A stretch of DNA of 64,000 nucleotides from Thermococcus barophilus MP. GTDB lineage: Archaea > Methanobacteriota_B > Thermococci > Thermococcales > Thermococcaceae. Below the pieces are notes generated by a model, which did not search any database, was not told where the DNA came from, and saw only the letters and a program-made list of their open reading frames with translations. The position numbers were made by a program, and so were the translations under genes. Where the stretch lies: the NCBI RefSeq assembly GCF_000151105.2, contig NC_014804.1, positions 1,116,001 through 1,180,000 on the forward strand, read 5' to 3'. Of the stretch, positions 44,365-51,288 are shown piece after piece (the first letter of the stretch is position 1; each line of letters opens with the position of its first letter).

Positions 44365-45174
44365 TCACCACCAGATTCTGTTGCCCTTGACCTTGATGTA
44401 CCCCAAACTTTGCAACTCTTTAAGGAGATCCTCCAGAGCTTCTTCGTCAAAGTAAATGTTTATCTTCTCTCTCCTTCCTTCTATTGGAATGGGTTCCCTT
44501 TCAAGCAGAGCCTCAATAAGCTCGTTTTTTCTGTTCTTCCTCTTAACCATCTCAAGAATTATCTCTGCCAGTGCTGATTTTGCAACTCCTACAAACATTG
44601 CATCCACTAAAGACTCTTCAGTTGCATATTTCTCTGCTATCTCAAGCGCCTCTTGGATCAGCTCCTTCTCAACTTCAAGAACCTCAACATAGTATCTCTT
44701 TACAAACGTGAACTCTGTTATGAGCTTTGCATTCATCTTCTCCTCAAGCTCATCTAAAAATTCCTCAACTTCATCTATCGGGAACCTCAGCTCAATAACT
44801 AAATCATCAAGCTTGGGTTTTTTCATGAGCTTCAGCTTTTCTTCCCCGACGATATATCCGCCTTCAATCAGCGCTGATAAAACTACGAGTCTGTTTATAT
44901 CAACTTCATCGAATAATTCACCAATTTCCTTTTCTTCCCCAACCTGCCACTTTTGCATAAGCATTTCAAAAGACTGCTGAATCTCACCAAGCTTTTCATC
45001 GATCACATCAAAACCTTCGCTTTTTACAACCAGCTCGGAGTACCTTCCTTTGATCATGATAAAATGCTGGATTTCCCACCCAAGTTCTTCTTTTGTTTTG
45101 TTCATAATCCCAGCTTTGCTAAGCTCCTTTGAAAGTTCGATCATATCGTTCTTACTCAAGACTTCAAATCTCAT
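44365..45174 (-). CDS. unknown acidic protein coupled to the PP-loop ATPase
   Basis: 269 residues, acidic and helix-rich, with ELGWEIQHFIMIKGRYSELVV near the start, LDDLVIELRFPIDEVEEFLDEL in the middle, and a final winged-helix-like segment (EALEDLLKELQSLGYIKVKGNRIWW). I do not recognise a family. It overlaps or abuts genes on both sides (45219 and 44362), suggesting a shared operon with the PP-loop protein, to which it may supply the substrate-binding part. The ATG at 45174 follows GGGGATACAA; upstream codons to 45222 are less likely. Confidence 0.6.
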   Translation of the reverse strand: MRFEVLSKNDMIELSKELSKAGIMNKTKEELGWEIQHFIMIKGRYSELVVKSEGFDVIDEKLGEIQQSFEMLMQKWQVGEEKEIGELFDEVDINRLVVLSALIEGGYIVGEEKLKLMKKPKLDDLVIELRFPIDEVEEFLDELEEKMNAKLITEFTFVKRYYVEVLEVEKELIQEALEIAEKYATEESLVDAMFVGVAKSALAEIILEMVKRKNRKNELIEALLEREPIPIEGRREKINIYFDEEALEDLLKELQSLGYIKVKGNRIWW

Positions 45175-45218
45175 TTGTATCCCCAAAGGTACTCCAGAAT
45201 ATCTGGTTATAAAGTTTC

Positions 45219-45881
45219 TCAACTTTTCTCAAGGAGAGACATCATCAGGGCTTTTAACGGCTTGTTTCTTAAAAGAGCCACTGCTTCCTCTATGTCATCT
45301 TTAAGATTGGGATATTTATCCCTGCTAATATACAGATAAAGAGCATACGCCATTATTTTTGGATTTCCTTCATTTATATTCTCTATTGCTTCCGCCAAGC
45401 TCAGATTCGTGAGCAGGGTATCTGCAAGGAGACGAAGCCTCTCCTTGTCTTGCTTTTTCAGAGCTTCCTTTAAAGGAAGATAAAATTCATTCAGAACAAT
45501 GCGTGCACTTTTTTCCCTTTTATGAAGGTAATCCAGTGGGCTTTCAATAGCCTCCCTGTGCATGAATTTCCAAACGAGGTAGCCTAAAGGGAATGATATC
45601 AATATAACAACGAGAACCACGTATGGTGTGAGAGAAAAAGGTATCCTCTGAGCATACCGGCTTTTAATGTAGTATAAAAACATCATACCAACAACTAACC
45701 ATAATGCAATTAAAATTAGGTAGTACTCAGAATAGTCCTTTCTTTTCTCCCAGATCCTATATTTATGGGCTGCTCCTGTTTCTTCAAGTAATTTTAACCT
45801 CTGTTCTGCCAGTTCAATCTCAGCTTCCAGTCTCTTTATCCTTTTCTCTATTTCTTTAAATACTTCCTCCATGTCCCTCAT
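45219..45881 (-). CDS. membrane protein with N-terminal coiled coil and two spans
   Basis: 220 residues. The first 45 residues are a charged coiled coil (EEVFKEIEKRIKRLEAEIEL). Then come two hydrophobic spans (YLILIALWLVVGMMFLYYI, about 55-73; YVVLVVILISFPLGYLVWKF, about 87-106), followed by a helical cytoplasmic domain of about 115 residues. No known domain recognised. It overlaps the end of the creatininase-family gene; ATG at 45881 or 45872. Confidence 0.6.
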   Translation of the reverse strand: MRDMEEVFKEIEKRIKRLEAEIELAEQRLKLLEETGAAHKYRIWEKRKDYSEYYLILIALWLVVGMMFLYYIKSRYAQRIPFSLTPYVVLVVILISFPLGYLVWKFMHREAIESPLDYLHKREKSARIVLNEFYLPLKEALKKQDKERLRLLADTLLTNLSLAEAIENINEGNPKIMAYALYLYISRDKYPNLKDDIEEAVALLRNKPLKALMMSLLEKS

Positions 45882-45882
45882 C

Positions 45883-46593
45883 TCAATCTTCCAAGATGAA
45901 GCGGGCAATTTTTTTGCTGATAACCTCTAAAATTGCCTCACCCTTCTCTTTTGTTGCACCTCTTGGATCATCATTTACGCCATTTGGAAACAGTTCAAGA
46001 GCTATATCCTTTCTAATTTTTCTGACTTTTGAAGTTCTCTTTTCGCCTTCAGCTTTTTCCATTTTAACTAATTCCGGCTTTATTGCCAGAATAACGGATG
46101 TCTCGTCTTCTCCAGCATGACCTTGAGAAGAGCATATGCTCAGAATGTCTTCCCTAAAGTCAATCCACCAGTTTATCAGCCACACTTCAACATTGTATCT
46201 CCTGGCAACCTCTTCAGCAGCTTCAACAAGCGGATAATAGTTTCCACCATGCCCATTTAGCAAGATGATTTTTCTGAAACCTTCTTCTGCAAATTCTGCC
46301 ATAACGTCTCTAACGTATCTCCTCAGGGTGTCTGCTTTAACGTTTATAGTTCCTGGAAAGACATCGAGAACAAAACTATGCCCATACCAGATTGGAGGTG
46401 CAATTAGGATTTCTTTTCCTTTCTCCCTCAGCTTAGCTTCAACCCTCTTTGCTATTTCAACTGGAGCAAAGACATCAGTGCCAAGAGGCAAATGCTTTCC
46501 ATGAGCCTCAACACTCCCAATCGGCAGAATTACAGTGTCGATTTTCTTCTTGATCTCATTAAATTCATCCCATGTCAAATTTTCCATGTACAT
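45883..46593 (-). CDS. creatininase-family amidohydrolase (ArfB/creatinine amidohydrolase fold)
   Basis: 236 residues. ILPIGSVEAHGKHLPLGTD (about 22-40) with its Glu and two His metal ligands, LNGHGGNYYPL (about 110) and GHAGEDETSVIL (about 160) form the creatininase metal site. In archaea, relatives deformylate the riboflavin/F420 precursor (ArfB), but other reactions are possible. Here it is next to a glycosyltransferase on the same strand, so the substrate is open. GAGGGGGATT precedes the ATG. Confidence 0.82.
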   Translation of the reverse strand: MYMENLTWDEFNEIKKKIDTVILPIGSVEAHGKHLPLGTDVFAPVEIAKRVEAKLREKGKEILIAPPIWYGHSFVLDVFPGTINVKADTLRRYVRDVMAEFAEEGFRKIILLNGHGGNYYPLVEAAEEVARRYNVEVWLINWWIDFREDILSICSSQGHAGEDETSVILAIKPELVKMEKAEGEKRTSKVRKIRKDIALELFPNGVNDDPRGATKEKGEAILEVISKKIARFILED

Positions 46594-46604
46594 TTTAATC
46601 CCCC

Positions 46605-47741
46605 TCAGATTTTTGACAGAATATCCTCATAAGTTTTTTCAATCTGCTTCGCAACCTTGTCCCAGGAATACCTTTCCTCCACAGCTCTCCTTCCGTTATT
46701 CCCAAACCATTCTCTAAGATTATCATCAAGGAGAAGCTTTTGAATGGCCTTTCTCAGCTCAAGTTCATTACCCGGAGGGACCAAAAGCCCACTTTCACTC
46801 TCTCTCACAATTTCAGGAATTCCCCCTACATCTGTTGCGATAACCGGCAAACCCGATGCCATTGCCTCCAAGATCACAATTCCAAATGCCTCGGCTGTTA
46901 TTGAGGGAAGAACAAAAACATCTGCCATCCCAAAAATCTTTGGTAACATCTTGCTATCTACGTATCCCAAAAACCTAACCCTATCCTCAATCCTCAAGAA
47001 CTTTGCTTGTGCTCTTAAGAATGGAAGCATTTCTCCAGAGCCCACCATGACCAAAGTTGCATCTTCAATTTCCGAGAAGGCATTGAGAAGAACGTGGGGA
47101 CCTTTTCGATAGCTCATCCTGCTTACATACAGCACAACCTTGTTATCAATCCCAAATTCAGCTTTAATCCTCTCTTTATCCCATTTTGGTGTAAAAAGCT
47201 TATCATCAACGCCGTTTGGAATGATCTCTATTGGAGTATCCGTGAAATGCTCTATAAATGCTTTGGCAGCCTTGCTAACTGCAATTATCTTATGGGGATA
47301 CTTCAGATAATTGCTGAACATGGGGAACGTTAAGCCCAAAGCCTCCCAGAGCTTTGATTCATGGGCAAAGGAAATACTGTGGGTTGTTAGGAGGGTTGCC
47401 TTTCCCATCTCTCTCCCAGCTTTTGCCGCTTTTAATGCCAGTGGTGTAAATGCATGATGGGAGTGAACAACGTCAAACTCTTTTAGAAATTCATTGAGCT
47501 CCCTTGTTGATTTCAGACTGTATGTGATATTCACCTCAAGAATTGGGCTCACTACGCCGGGGATTTTTATGAGTCTAATTCCCTTTTCTTCCAGCTCAGT
47601 TTCTTTTCCTGTCTCTCTGTTGTTTGTAATAATCGCAACCTCATGTCCCATTTCTCTAAGCTTTAATGCCAGATGGTGCATATGGCTTGCAACGCCGCCG
47701 ATTTTTGGATAATACCAATCGCTAACAAGAGCTATCCTCAT
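46605..47741 (-). CDS. GT4-family glycosyltransferase
   Basis: 378 residues in two Rossmann domains. DWYYPKIGGVASHMHHLA (about 9-26) is the acceptor-side start, IIPNGVDDKLF (about 195), YVSRMSYRKGPHVLLNAF (about 226) and the EX7E motif AEAFGIVILEAMASGLPVIATD with GGIPEI (about 300) bind the sugar nucleotide. It is probably a cytoplasmic retaining hexosyltransferase. It overlaps the LPG_synthase_TM-type gene by 4 nt, so they are coupled. The sugar acceptor is unknown; the neighbours suggest a lipid. Confidence 0.88.
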   Translation of the reverse strand: MRIALVSDWYYPKIGGVASHMHHLALKLREMGHEVAIITNNRETGKETELEEKGIRLIKIPGVVSPILEVNITYSLKSTRELNEFLKEFDVVHSHHAFTPLALKAAKAGREMGKATLLTTHSISFAHESKLWEALGLTFPMFSNYLKYPHKIIAVSKAAKAFIEHFTDTPIEIIPNGVDDKLFTPKWDKERIKAEFGIDNKVVLYVSRMSYRKGPHVLLNAFSEIEDATLVMVGSGEMLPFLRAQAKFLRIEDRVRFLGYVDSKMLPKIFGMADVFVLPSITAEAFGIVILEAMASGLPVIATDVGGIPEIVRESESGLLVPPGNELELRKAIQKLLLDDNLREWFGNNGRRAVEERYSWDKVAKQIEKTYEDILSKI

Positions 47742-48643
47742 TTCTTATCACCCTCACCCAAAGCCCCGTAAAACACCACTGCACCTATTATCGAGTACAT
47801 GTACTGAAAAAGAAATTTATAAATAAATGCGGTTATTGTTGCCTTAGTGGAAGCCCCGATTCCAAGAACAAGCCCAAACTCATTTGCTCCAAAGCCTGCG
47901 GGAATGCCGCTGACGGAAGCAAAGAGGATGCTCATCAGGAACCCATATAAAGCCTGCTTCACTGAAATTTCTAAATTGAACGCTTTTCCAACTGTGATAA
48001 TACCAAAAACCTGGAGGAAAATTATCACTGCAGAGAGCAGAAAAGATATCAGAAGAACCACTCTGTTCTCTTTTGCTTCACTCCATCCCATATGTATCCG
48101 CTCTAAATAACTTCTCAGAGTCAGGATTAATCCTTTAATTCCGACACTTTCCCAAAACTTCAGCAGGGAATCAAGAACTTGGTATATACCCTTTTCATAA
48201 ATGAGAGCAACCAAAATAAGAATCAATCCGAAAATTCCAACCTTTGTAAAGCCAACAAAAATAAGTGCAAATGAAAGGACCACCAAAAATTCTGTGCTCA
48301 GCCCAATTACAAGAGAAGAGAGAGCTTTGAAATAATCTCCCCCAACGAGTTTAACTTTTGCCATATGACCCACACTTGGGGGGAGGATAGTTATTAAGTA
48401 ATAACCACTCAAGAAAGCTTTAAGTGTTTTCTTAAAATTCGTTCCTTGAACCTCCCTTAAAAACAAGTACCATCTGAGAGACGATAAAAGCAGGGTAAAA
48501 ACCGAAAGCACAAGCGCCATGAGAATATACTTACAGGAAGCAGCTTTTAGAGCTAACCCAAGCTCACTGACATTGATGTTTTTGTATAGGTATGCGAGTG
48601 AAATTAAGAGAGCAATTAGAGTAAACACCCGGCTCTTATTCAT
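47738..48643 (-). CDS. LPG_synthase_TM/AglD-like (UPF0104) integral membrane protein
   Basis: 301 residues with about eight hydrophobic spans (for example YILMALVLSVFTLLLSSLRW, LVIGLSTEFLVVLSFALIFV, VVLLISFLLSAVIIFLQVFG). Its GYYLITILPPSVGHMAKV and GIPAGFGANEFG loops match the lysylphosphatidylglycerol synthase membrane-region family, members of which move or modify lipids or accompany glycosyltransferases (AglD type). It is coupled with the GT4 gene downstream and starts 2 nt after the UbiA gene. A lipid-sugar transfer or flipping role is inferred. Confidence 0.8.
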   Translation of the reverse strand: MNKSRVFTLIALLISLAYLYKNINVSELGLALKAASCKYILMALVLSVFTLLLSSLRWYLFLREVQGTNFKKTLKAFLSGYYLITILPPSVGHMAKVKLVGGDYFKALSSLVIGLSTEFLVVLSFALIFVGFTKVGIFGLILILVALIYEKGIYQVLDSLLKFWESVGIKGLILTLRSYLERIHMGWSEAKENRVVLLISFLLSAVIIFLQVFGIITVGKAFNLEISVKQALYGFLMSILFASVSGIPAGFGANEFGLVLGIGASTKATITAFIYKFLFQYMYSIIGAVVFYGALGEGDKK

Positions 48644-48644
48644 A

Positions 48645-49439
48645 TTACGCACCCAGTAATACCCTTAAAGCATGCAGAGCTAAAAGAAAAATTACAACTG
48701 CATCAAGGGTTCTATAATTTGCCCTAACACCCACAATCATGATGCCAAATGCCCCAAAGGGAATATTTAGGGCAGCTAAGAGCAGGGCTATTGAGATACC
48801 TGAAAATACCACAACAAGCTTTTCTGATAAAGCTTTGCCGATGACAATTGGGGTCGTTTTTAAATTTGCCGCTAAGTCACTTTCATAGTCTTCAAGATGA
48901 TTTCTCAGCTCCATCGCAAACGAATAAAGTAGAAGAGCCAAACCGATCACGATTTCATATTTTGTTAGAACCCCGTCAAAAAATGCGCCATAGAAGAATG
49001 GCATCGCTCCGAAGAATATTCCGTGAGACACTACATCTAACACAGGCAGTGCTTTAAGTCTTGGTGGTGCTGAGTAGAGAGTAGCTAATAGCACCATTGA
49101 GACATAAATCAAAAGTTCTTCGCGCCCAAGGAAAGCCGCAAATAGTATCCCCAAAAACCCAATTACAGCTGAAGATATGATCCCATTTTTAAAGGTAAGC
49201 TCTCCATTAGCAATTGGGTTTTTATCTCTCTTCTGAGGATTCACTAAATCGGTGTCTACATCGAAGCAGTTATTGATGGCAAAGGCATATGCAACATACA
49301 GTATCAGGGATATTAAAACCAATACAGCATCTTTGAAATCAGGGTTATACTTGAAGCTTATCACCAATCCAAGCAACCCCATCCCTATGAAAGATTTACC
49401 GTCGATTATCCTGGTGTTTTTTATCATGGCTCGTAACAT
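48645..49439 (-). CDS. UbiA-family prenyltransferase
   Basis: 264 residues, about eight membrane spans. Motif 1 INNCFDVDTDLVNPQKRDKN (about 57-76) and motif 2 NHLEDYESDLAAN (about 180-192) hold the Asp residues that bind Mg-polyprenyl diphosphate. UbiA enzymes join prenyl groups to aromatics, sugars or glycerol lipids. The dedicated archaeal digeranylgeranylglyceryl phosphate synthase is one class, but the linkage to a glycosyltransferase and a flippase-like protein suggests a different acceptor. The ATG at 49439 follows GGTGAGTGT. Confidence 0.87.
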   Translation of the reverse strand: MLRAMIKNTRIIDGKSFIGMGLLGLVISFKYNPDFKDAVLVLISLILYVAYAFAINNCFDVDTDLVNPQKRDKNPIANGELTFKNGIISSAVIGFLGILFAAFLGREELLIYVSMVLLATLYSAPPRLKALPVLDVVSHGIFFGAMPFFYGAFFDGVLTKYEIVIGLALLLYSFAMELRNHLEDYESDLAANLKTTPIVIGKALSEKLVVVFSGISIALLLAALNIPFGAFGIMIVGVRANYRTLDAVVIFLLALHALRVLLGA

Positions 49440-49530
49440 ACACTCACCATCAGACATGCCTCAAAAATGCTTATAAGTATTTCCACCAAATTGTGAATAG
49501 GTATGAAGAAAAAGTTTCATAGTGATTGAG

Positions 49531-49854
49531 ATGGAAGAAATGTTGAAAGCCTTCACAAACACACTTGAAAAATTCAAGCTCACCCGTTCGGAAATTAGAA
49601 TATACTCCCTCCTCCTAAAAGAGCAGTTGACACCAAGGCAGATAGCGAAAAAGCTTGGTTTGTCCGAAAGAATCGTCAGGGAAAAGCTTCAGCATCTCCT
49701 TGAGCTTGGACTGGTGGAAAGAGAGCTTATAAGCAGGGGATGGATTGGATACCTATACAAAGCAAAGGCACCAAATGAGGCTCTTGATTCTCTCCTTTCT
49801 AAAATGGAAGAGCTGATAAAAAGTCTTAAAAAAGAAGCTAATAGGATGATCTAA
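49531..49854 (+). CDS. TrmB/ArsR-like winged-helix regulator (short)
   Basis: 107 residues. [20 protein letters not shown] and [20 protein letters not shown] (about 18-57) form a winged helix of the TrmB/MarR type, with a wing [18 protein letters not shown] and a C-terminal dimerisation helix. No sugar-binding domain is attached. It is divergent from ubiA by about 90 nt, so it may control the lipid-glycan cluster. The ATG at 49531 follows AGTGATTGAG. Confidence 0.75.
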
Positions 49855-50796: not shown

Positions 50797-51288
50797 ATGA
50801 CAGAGATGAGCTTTCGAAAGCAGTTATTCAAGGCAATAAAGGAACTTAAAAATGAGCTTGAAGAGCTTGGGAGATATGGAACACCATATTTAATAGGAGA
50901 GATAAAAAAGGATAACGGTAAATGGGAAGTTCATTTGGCAGTCTCTGTAATTGAAGAGGAAATAGAAGAATTCTCAATAGAAGAAAATGAAACTCTTATG
51001 TTTATTTGCCCGGTAAGGGATACTCGGCCATATAAGGTGTACATGGATGTTATATCCCTTATATCTAACAAGAGGCTACAACAAGAAATCAAGCCTGGAA
51101 GTGTAATAAAGGGAAACCCACGGAGAGCTTTAAAAAGAATGGGGTTCGAAATTCTGTGGATGCATTCTCAGAACACATCTGAAGGAGCCTATATCACAGT
51201 ATGGGCCTCTAAAAGGGGAAACAAGTACACGATAACCATGAAGGTTGTAGGAGAGGAAGCCAAAATAATAGAGGTAAAAAAGATTTAA
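50797..51288 (+). CDS. hypothetical protein, helical N-terminus and beta-rich C-terminus
   Basis: 163 residues. A charged helix (RKQLFKAIKELKNELEELG) is followed by alternating strands (PYLIGEIKKDNGKWEVHLAVS, ETLMFICPVRDT, YTITMKVVGEEAKIIEV). I recognise no domain. A TATA element GATTATAAATC (about 50753-50763) lies about 40 nt upstream. The 3' end overlaps speD by 4 nt in the opposite sense. Confidence 0.55.
   Translation: MTEMSFRKQLFKAIKELKNELEELGRYGTPYLIGEIKKDNGKWEVHLAVSVIEEEIEEFSIEENETLMFICPVRDTRPYKVYMDVISLISNKRLQQEIKPGSVIKGNPRRALKRMGFEILWMHSQNTSEGAYITVWASKRGNKYTITMKVVGEEAKIIEVKKI

Follow-up and report, generated by a model that had tools for sequence, protein, structure and literature searches.

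The DNA analysed here, referred to as the window, is a 64,000-nucleotide (nt) stretch of Thermococcus barophilus MP (contig NC_014804.1, positions 1,116,001 to 1,180,000), and all positions are counted from its first letter. Three adjacent genes on the minus strand encode a UbiA-family prenyltransferase (48645..49439), a flippase-like membrane protein (47738..48643), and a GT4 retaining-type glycosyltransferase (46605..47741). The UbiA protein has 264 residues when read from the ATG at 49439, while its open reading frame (ORF) reaches an upstream ATG at 49457, which would give 270 residues. GGTGAG lies 5' of the ATG at 49439, and a TTATAA box (about 49471-49476, read by eye) lies about 30 nt away. 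These two elements favour the start at 49439, as chosen in the first-pass annotation of this DNA. The box falls in the intergenic region 49440..49521, which the three genes share with a small, divergently oriented helix-turn-helix (HTH) gene (49522..49854, plus strand). With its ATG start at 48643, the flippase gene is separated from the UbiA gene by 1 nt (48644) and overlaps the GT4 gene by 4 nt (47738-47741); an alternative GTG start at 48652 would replace the gap with an 8-nt overlap. The three-gene arrangement described in the first-pass annotation, including its 1-nt gap, 4-nt overlap, and divergent HTH gene, is thus confirmed by the coordinates with ATG starts, and Pfam and NCBIfam scores bear out its family assignments of UbiA, LPG_synthase_TM, and GT4.

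The window UbiA matches PF01040 with 102.6 bits, above the gathering score of 34.2, and reaches no NCBIfam subfamily cut-off. We aligned 44 cassette UbiAs with 19 further relatives from archaea or bacteria and with 31 proteins of the digeranylgeranylglyceryl phosphate (DGGGP) synthase (DGGGPS) type. Residues N62, D66, D70, Y128, K135, D190, and D194 are common to every protein, that is, to all 63 cassette UbiAs and relatives and to the DGGGPS-type proteins as well. The cassette UbiA retains both Asp-rich motifs of prenyl-diphosphate users and the Tyr/Lys motif of the UbiA superfamily, and is predicted to catalyse prenyl transfer. Other positions separate the two groups. Residues H145, R185, and N186 are present in 63/63 cassette UbiAs and relatives, whereas V145 and K186 are present in 31/31 DGGGPS proteins; in addition, N63 and H187 in 44/44 cassette UbiAs are replaced by D63 and D187 in 31/31 DGGGPS proteins. 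The genome of T. barophilus contains two UbiA genes, a DGGGPS-like one scoring 158 bits and the cassette gene scoring 101 bits. Against the two NCBIfam DGGGPS models, the cassette protein scores 65 and 55 bits, far below the cut-offs of 353 and 296 bits. By these sequence measures, the housekeeping DGGGP synthase is a different protein from the cassette UbiA.

The same evidence bears on whether UbiA could be a second, DGGGPS-like ether-lipid core enzyme, for example one for C20-C25 cores. T. barophilus does make minor C20-C25 (PSGD) lipids (Tourte 2022, PMC9294538), and the cassette UbiA is weakly similar to the DGGGPS MjDGGGPS, but the separate DGGGPS-type gene, the four group-specific residues, and the low model scores render this role highly unlikely. 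In addition, the lipid fraction carrying an extra 68 Da, which is discussed below, contains a C20-C20 core at 100%, with PSGD in trace amounts (PMC9294538).

The AlphaFold model of UbiA (mean predicted local distance difference test, pLDDT, 88) resembles 4tq4 and 7bpu. The nearest solved relative is AfUbiA from Archaeoglobus fulgidus (PDB 4tq3-4tq6; profile E 6.6e-32, Foldseek E 1.6e-9), which is about 21% identical to the cassette UbiA in the structural alignment. According to the available text of the structural report, AfUbiA was crystallised with dimethylallyl diphosphate (DMAPP) and geranyl diphosphate, and no acceptor was found (PMC4106721). MjDGGGPS (PDB 6m31) shares the UbiA fold (TM 0.73) and O-prenylates an archaeal phospholipid-type acceptor. 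Therefore, O-prenylation of a lipid head group is chemically plausible.

The cassette UbiA also contains a loop, NPxKRxKNPIAxG, that resembles the loop of decaprenyl-phosphate phosphoribosyltransferases, and it matches NCBIfam PRK12324 with an E of 1e-6, although at 28 bits of a 234-bit cut-off. Prompted by the loop, we considered whether UbiA is a phosphoribosyltransferase that charges polyprenyl phosphate, which would make the cassette an archaeal three-component pentofuranose system. The system of that kind described in PNAS 2024 (PMC11127046) likewise combines a UbiA-fold enzyme, a flippase, and a glycosyltransferase, and acts on a lipid-linked sugar. However, phosphoribosyltransferases have Arg and Glu at the second Asp motif (PMC11127046), whereas D190 and D194 are intact in 63/63 cassette UbiAs and relatives, and the phosphoribosyltransferase-type structure 8j8j is more distant (fold E 3.7e-5, profile E 0.002) than AfUbiA. 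The partners differ as well: the glycosyltransferase and flippase of the pentofuranose system are GT-C and MATE proteins, while the cassette has a GT4 enzyme, an LPG_synthase_TM protein, and a prenyltransferase-type UbiA. The second Asp motif and the fold thus rule against this assignment, and we give it hardly any weight.

The cassette GT4 matches PF00534 (162 bits) and PF13439 (98.4 bits), and its EX7E motif (E284-x7-E292) is invariant in 14/14 aligned proteins, in line with membership of the GT4 family. It matches the structures of PimA (2gej and 4n9w, E about 1e-29) and of a BshA-type enzyme (2jjm, E 5e-31). PimA, the phosphatidylinositol mannosyltransferase, is a GT4 enzyme whose acceptor is the head of a membrane lipid; for the archaeal GT4, known here from its sequence, we infer donor and acceptor. 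The flippase-like protein scores 76.3 bits against PF03706 (cut-off 33.4) and 43.8 bits against TIGR00374 (cut-off 43.2), and its model has a pLDDT of 76. It shares family PF03706, the LPG_synthase_TM region, with lysyl-phosphatidylglycerol synthases, but at 302-304 residues the cassette protein consists of the membrane region only and lacks the catalytic, aminoacyl-transfer domain.

The conservation of the block across Thermococcales, a check proposed in the first-pass annotation, was determined in 94 Thermococcaceae genomes, with presence defined as an identity of at least 45% for UbiA, 65% for GT4, and 42% for the flippase. UbiA is present in 52 genomes, GT4 in 59 (excluding G061, in which a 67% partial match contains an internal stop), and the flippase in 39. 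UbiA and GT4 occur together in 51 genomes, UbiA only in 1, GT4 only in 8, and neither in 34 (p = 8e-17); for the flippase and GT4, p = 7e-10. Neither value is corrected for species relatedness, and mirror-tree correlations of 0.71-0.85, equally uncorrected for species phylogeny, carry little weight. In the sole UbiA-only genome, the contig stops within the flippase gene. A phylum-level search yielded matches in 52 of 115 genomes, all 52 inside Thermococcaceae. The first-pass annotation had allowed that UbiA might prove to be the DGGGP synthase and its neighbours not co-conserved; instead, a separate DGGGPS is present, and 51 of the 52 UbiA genomes carry GT4.

Fifty regions were fetched for locus reading, with ORF ends taken from a greedy longest-ORF caller; they leave out the UbiA genomes G011, G053, G077, G082, G084, G086, and G088 and the GT4-only genomes G062 and G091, and for G016 they include the GT4 contig only. 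GT4 lies 3' of UbiA in 44/44 UbiA loci read, with the flippase gene also there in 28 and missing in 16. Across 51 loci, including the window, the order of a divergent HTH gene followed by UbiA, flippase, and GT4 is repeated both at the spe locus and elsewhere in the chromosome; some relocated copies, for instance, follow a conserved pair of genes encoding 300 and 482 residues (L069, L072, L075, L076, L078, L079, L080, and L082), in some cases with one or two genes in between. Three genomes, all from a single genus (L070, L071, and L074), have a gene other than speE upstream, and in L071 and L074 a creatininase or coiled-coil gene still follows the cassette. Frames of 644-733 residues at UbiA in five genomes might suggest a gene fusion, but these are open frames that overrun the gene, and speE is a separate ORF just upstream. 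These observations support the view that UbiA, flippase, and GT4, ordinary families in an unusual combination, form a conserved unit, and the cassette is mobile.

The pairing of UbiA with GT4 extends beyond Thermococcales. A profile of the cassette UbiA detects strong relatives in 14/398 genomes of the phylum of one Bathyarchaeota genome and in 10/389 genomes of another archaeal phylum. We counted 28 outside loci (L044-L046, L097-L112, and L153-L161), leaving uncounted the repeats L113 (= L044) and L114 (= L046) and the possibly contaminated L041. A GT4 of the cassette family adjoins UbiA in 13 of these loci and lies within two genes in 2 more (15/28). When a bathyarchaeal partner GT4 is used as the query, the best match is the cassette GT4 in 8/8 genomes. 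In a control set of DGGGPS loci, 0/30 have a GT4 of the cassette family; the set began with 31, and L029 was dropped as it gave no ORF under the gene caller. No flippase homolog adjoins UbiA in the outside loci read; UbiA and GT4 are thus the core, and the flippase is a Thermococcales addition.

One could still regard the cassette genes as loosely linked neighbours whose co-occurrence reflects shared ancestry, with the role of UbiA unrelated to GT4. GT4 without UbiA in 8/94 genomes, the flippase without UbiA in 5, and the 16/44 UbiA loci without the flippase speak for such loose linkage. Loci that lack UbiA have the flippase with GT4, or GT4 alone (L087, L088, and L090-L092). Movement to several sites with the order retained, and pairing across distant archaea that is absent from the DGGGPS control, make it improbable.

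Several outside loci have features of their own. L156-L161 contain distant UbiA relatives (108-124 bits) whose neighbours include no GT4 of the cassette family; these look like a different subfamily, and several have, by eye, additional UbiA-like and desaturase-like genes nearby, which may belong to a terpenoid pathway not yet studied. In L098 (1289-2911), and also in L097 and L044, the gene directly 5' of the Bathyarchaeota-type UbiA-GT4 pair encodes a radical SAM protein whose B12-binding match is weak. In L046 (5490-7923), from a bacterial metagenome-assembled genome (MAG), the UbiA homolog is flanked by genes resembling, by eye, isopentenyl diphosphate (IPP) isomerase and polyprenyl synthetase, which fits a prenyl diphosphate donor. 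The uncounted L041, from a MAG labelled Thermoplasmata, carries a Thermococcales-like UbiA-flippase pair (50-55% identity) and may be a contaminating contig.

Lipid analyses point to a possible product. According to the main text of Tourte 2020 (PMC7356043), Pyrococcus yayanosii contains PHexHex and PHexHex + C5H8 diethers, T. kodakarensis contains both together with hexosamine versions, and P. furiosus contains neither PHexHex nor its C5H8 form. T. barophilus contains PGlcHex + C5H8 at 1.5% together with a hexosamine version, and its +68 fraction releases glucose only (main text of Tourte 2022, PMC9294538). A loss of 68 Da was also detected in T. kodakarensis, and the exact mass supports C5H8 (Meador 2014, PMC3906577). 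UbiA and GT4 are present in all three C5H8-positive species, T. barophilus (G000), T. kodakarensis (G024), and P. yayanosii (G012); in T. kodakarensis KOD1, the two genes occupy about 1,167,450-1,169,420.

We tentatively propose, as a plausible reading short of a probable one, that the cassette serves to tailor archaeal phospholipids at their sugar head, with GT4 glycosylating the head, UbiA prenylating it with a C5 unit, and the flippase-like protein moving the product. At the cytoplasmic face, GT4 would first extend a phosphatidyl-hexose diether by a second sugar, in the manner of PimA on phosphatidylinositol. UbiA would then use DMAPP to attach a dimethylallyl (C5) group to one hydroxyl of this glycosylated head, as DGGGPS prenylates a hydroxyl of glycerol, and its product would be the known PHexHex + C5H8 lipid, the genes for which appear unassigned. 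The LPG_synthase_TM protein would move the product or a precursor across the membrane, and the divergent HTH gene may regulate the cassette. The first-pass annotation had read the block as a pathway for a prenylated or glycosylated lipid not yet described in archaea. The conserved unit stands, as does a lipid both prenylated and glycosylated as the best reading; the additional member genes do not, and the diether PHexHex + C5H8, as the likely product, has already been published for three species. In a search limited to open-access papers, we recognised none that assigns the cassette genes or names the enzyme of the C5H8 head, and the main texts of Tourte 2020 and Tourte 2022 contain no word starting with "prenyl" or "enzyme".

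Several points weigh against this proposal. UbiA enzymes usually take prenyl donors longer than C5. Only three species combine lipid and genome data, and all are positive; as UbiA is present in 52/94 genomes, a 3/3 match has a chance of about 0.17 and is weak evidence. The lipid-negative P. furiosus is outside the 12 genomes checked, in which the best match to its spermidine synthase (1mjf) is 77%; the spermidine synthase of G006 is identical over 277 residues to PDB 2e5w from P. horikoshii, a species that carries the flippase and GT4 but lacks UbiA. T. kodakarensis lacks the cassette flippase yet makes the C5H8 lipid, indicating that transport by this flippase is not needed for synthesis, and its main prenylated lipid carries a hexosamine that a different GT4 may supply. 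Outside Thermococcales, 13/28 loci have no GT4 beside UbiA, although in two of these the contig ends close by and several had weak scores. Finally, in the available text of their reports, Tourte and colleagues only suggest that C5H8 is an isoprene unit and draw its position arbitrarily.

The donor length in particular leaves room for another product, namely a neutral glycoside that is prenylated but has no relation to the C5H8 phospholipids, formed if UbiA moves a geranylgeranyl or longer chain to a small or aromatic acceptor that GT4 glycosylates. Long donors are common among UbiA enzymes, the AfUbiA tunnel is described as long (PMC4106721), and the L046 homolog lies beside putative prenyl-diphosphate genes, but this homolog is a distant relative without GT4. 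No such lipid is reported for T. barophilus in the main text of Tourte 2022, in which all intact polar lipids of the extract are phosphoglycolipids and no glycolipids were detected (PMC9294538), although the authors call most of the lipidome still inaccessible. We therefore consider a long-chain product rather unlikely and retain C5 prenylation of the phospholipid head as the preferred reading.

A second cassette in T. barophilus, outside the window, encodes a PF03706 flippase-like protein, a GT4, and a polysaccharide deacetylase in a row (L150:3270-6071) and could account for the hexosamine lipid head. In T. kodakarensis, a GT4 gene is followed by a polysaccharide deacetylase gene and, by eye, a radical-SAM-like gene (L147:2988-5919). 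Both species have the hexosamine lipid; P. yayanosii (G012), in which it is not reported, lacks the deacetylase. GT4-deacetylase adjacency is also found, by coordinates, in several other genomes. The deacetylase-linked GT4s differ, being 31% (L150) and 51% (L147) identical to the window GT4; it is thus the modifying enzyme with which the lipid co-occurs. T. kodakarensis also has a divergent flippase-like paralog (30% identity; L148:4182-5063) between speE and the coiled-coil gene, the slot occupied by the cassette in the window. Separately, a plasmid segment (L130:6864-11862) matches the P. yayanosii chromosome (G012) at 81-89%; a shared segment has been described for plasmid pTBMP1 of T. barophilus and island PYG1 of P. 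yayanosii (available text of PMC5126054). A plasmid collection, from which entries for the source genome may be excluded, contained no match to a part of the T. barophilus plasmid.

Among the neighbours, the divergent gene encodes a small TrmB-like HTH protein (best Pfam match PF01978 TrmB, 39.9 bits), and its ortholog is present in 27/51 loci, relocated copies included; it is probably a local regulator of the cassette. The speE gene (spermidine synthase, PF01564) sits beyond it. On the other side, genes for a creatininase-family hydrolase (45883..46593, minus strand; PF02633, 231 bits) and a two-span coiled-coil protein (45219..45908, minus strand; no Pfam match) follow the cassette, in the position given in the first-pass annotation. 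The creatininase gene comes immediately after GT4 in 28/51 loci, but both genes are missing from relocated copies. Therefore, they are neighbours rather than core members, and the membership earlier ascribed to them does not hold. Assignment of the hydrolase as ArfB, MftE, or creatininase proper fails, with scores of 30, 133, and 146 bits, all below cut-off. Proteins of 229 and 285 residues encoded downstream of the cassette match no Pfam family, and two conserved Thermococcales proteins without a Pfam match are encoded at 50797-51288 and 44365-45222.

More broadly, and more speculatively, it is possible that phospholipid sugars of Thermococcales are decorated by interchangeable cassettes, each composed of a GT4 and a sugar-modifying enzyme, with an LPG_synthase_TM flippase as an optional component. 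GT4-UbiA would yield C5-prenylated heads and GT4-polysaccharide deacetylase amino-sugar heads, and similar prenylated glycolipids may await in Bathyarchaeota and other archaea with UbiA-GT4. The UbiA group with H145, R185, and N186 would then be, to our knowledge, the first to O-prenylate a sugar, widening the known reactions of UbiA enzymes to include prenylation of sugars. If so, an orphan lipid met in three lipidomic studies would gain its genes, the function of a head-group modification would be reducible to a two-gene deletion experiment in a genetically tractable species, and lipids not yet seen in uncultured archaea would be predictable from sequence alone.

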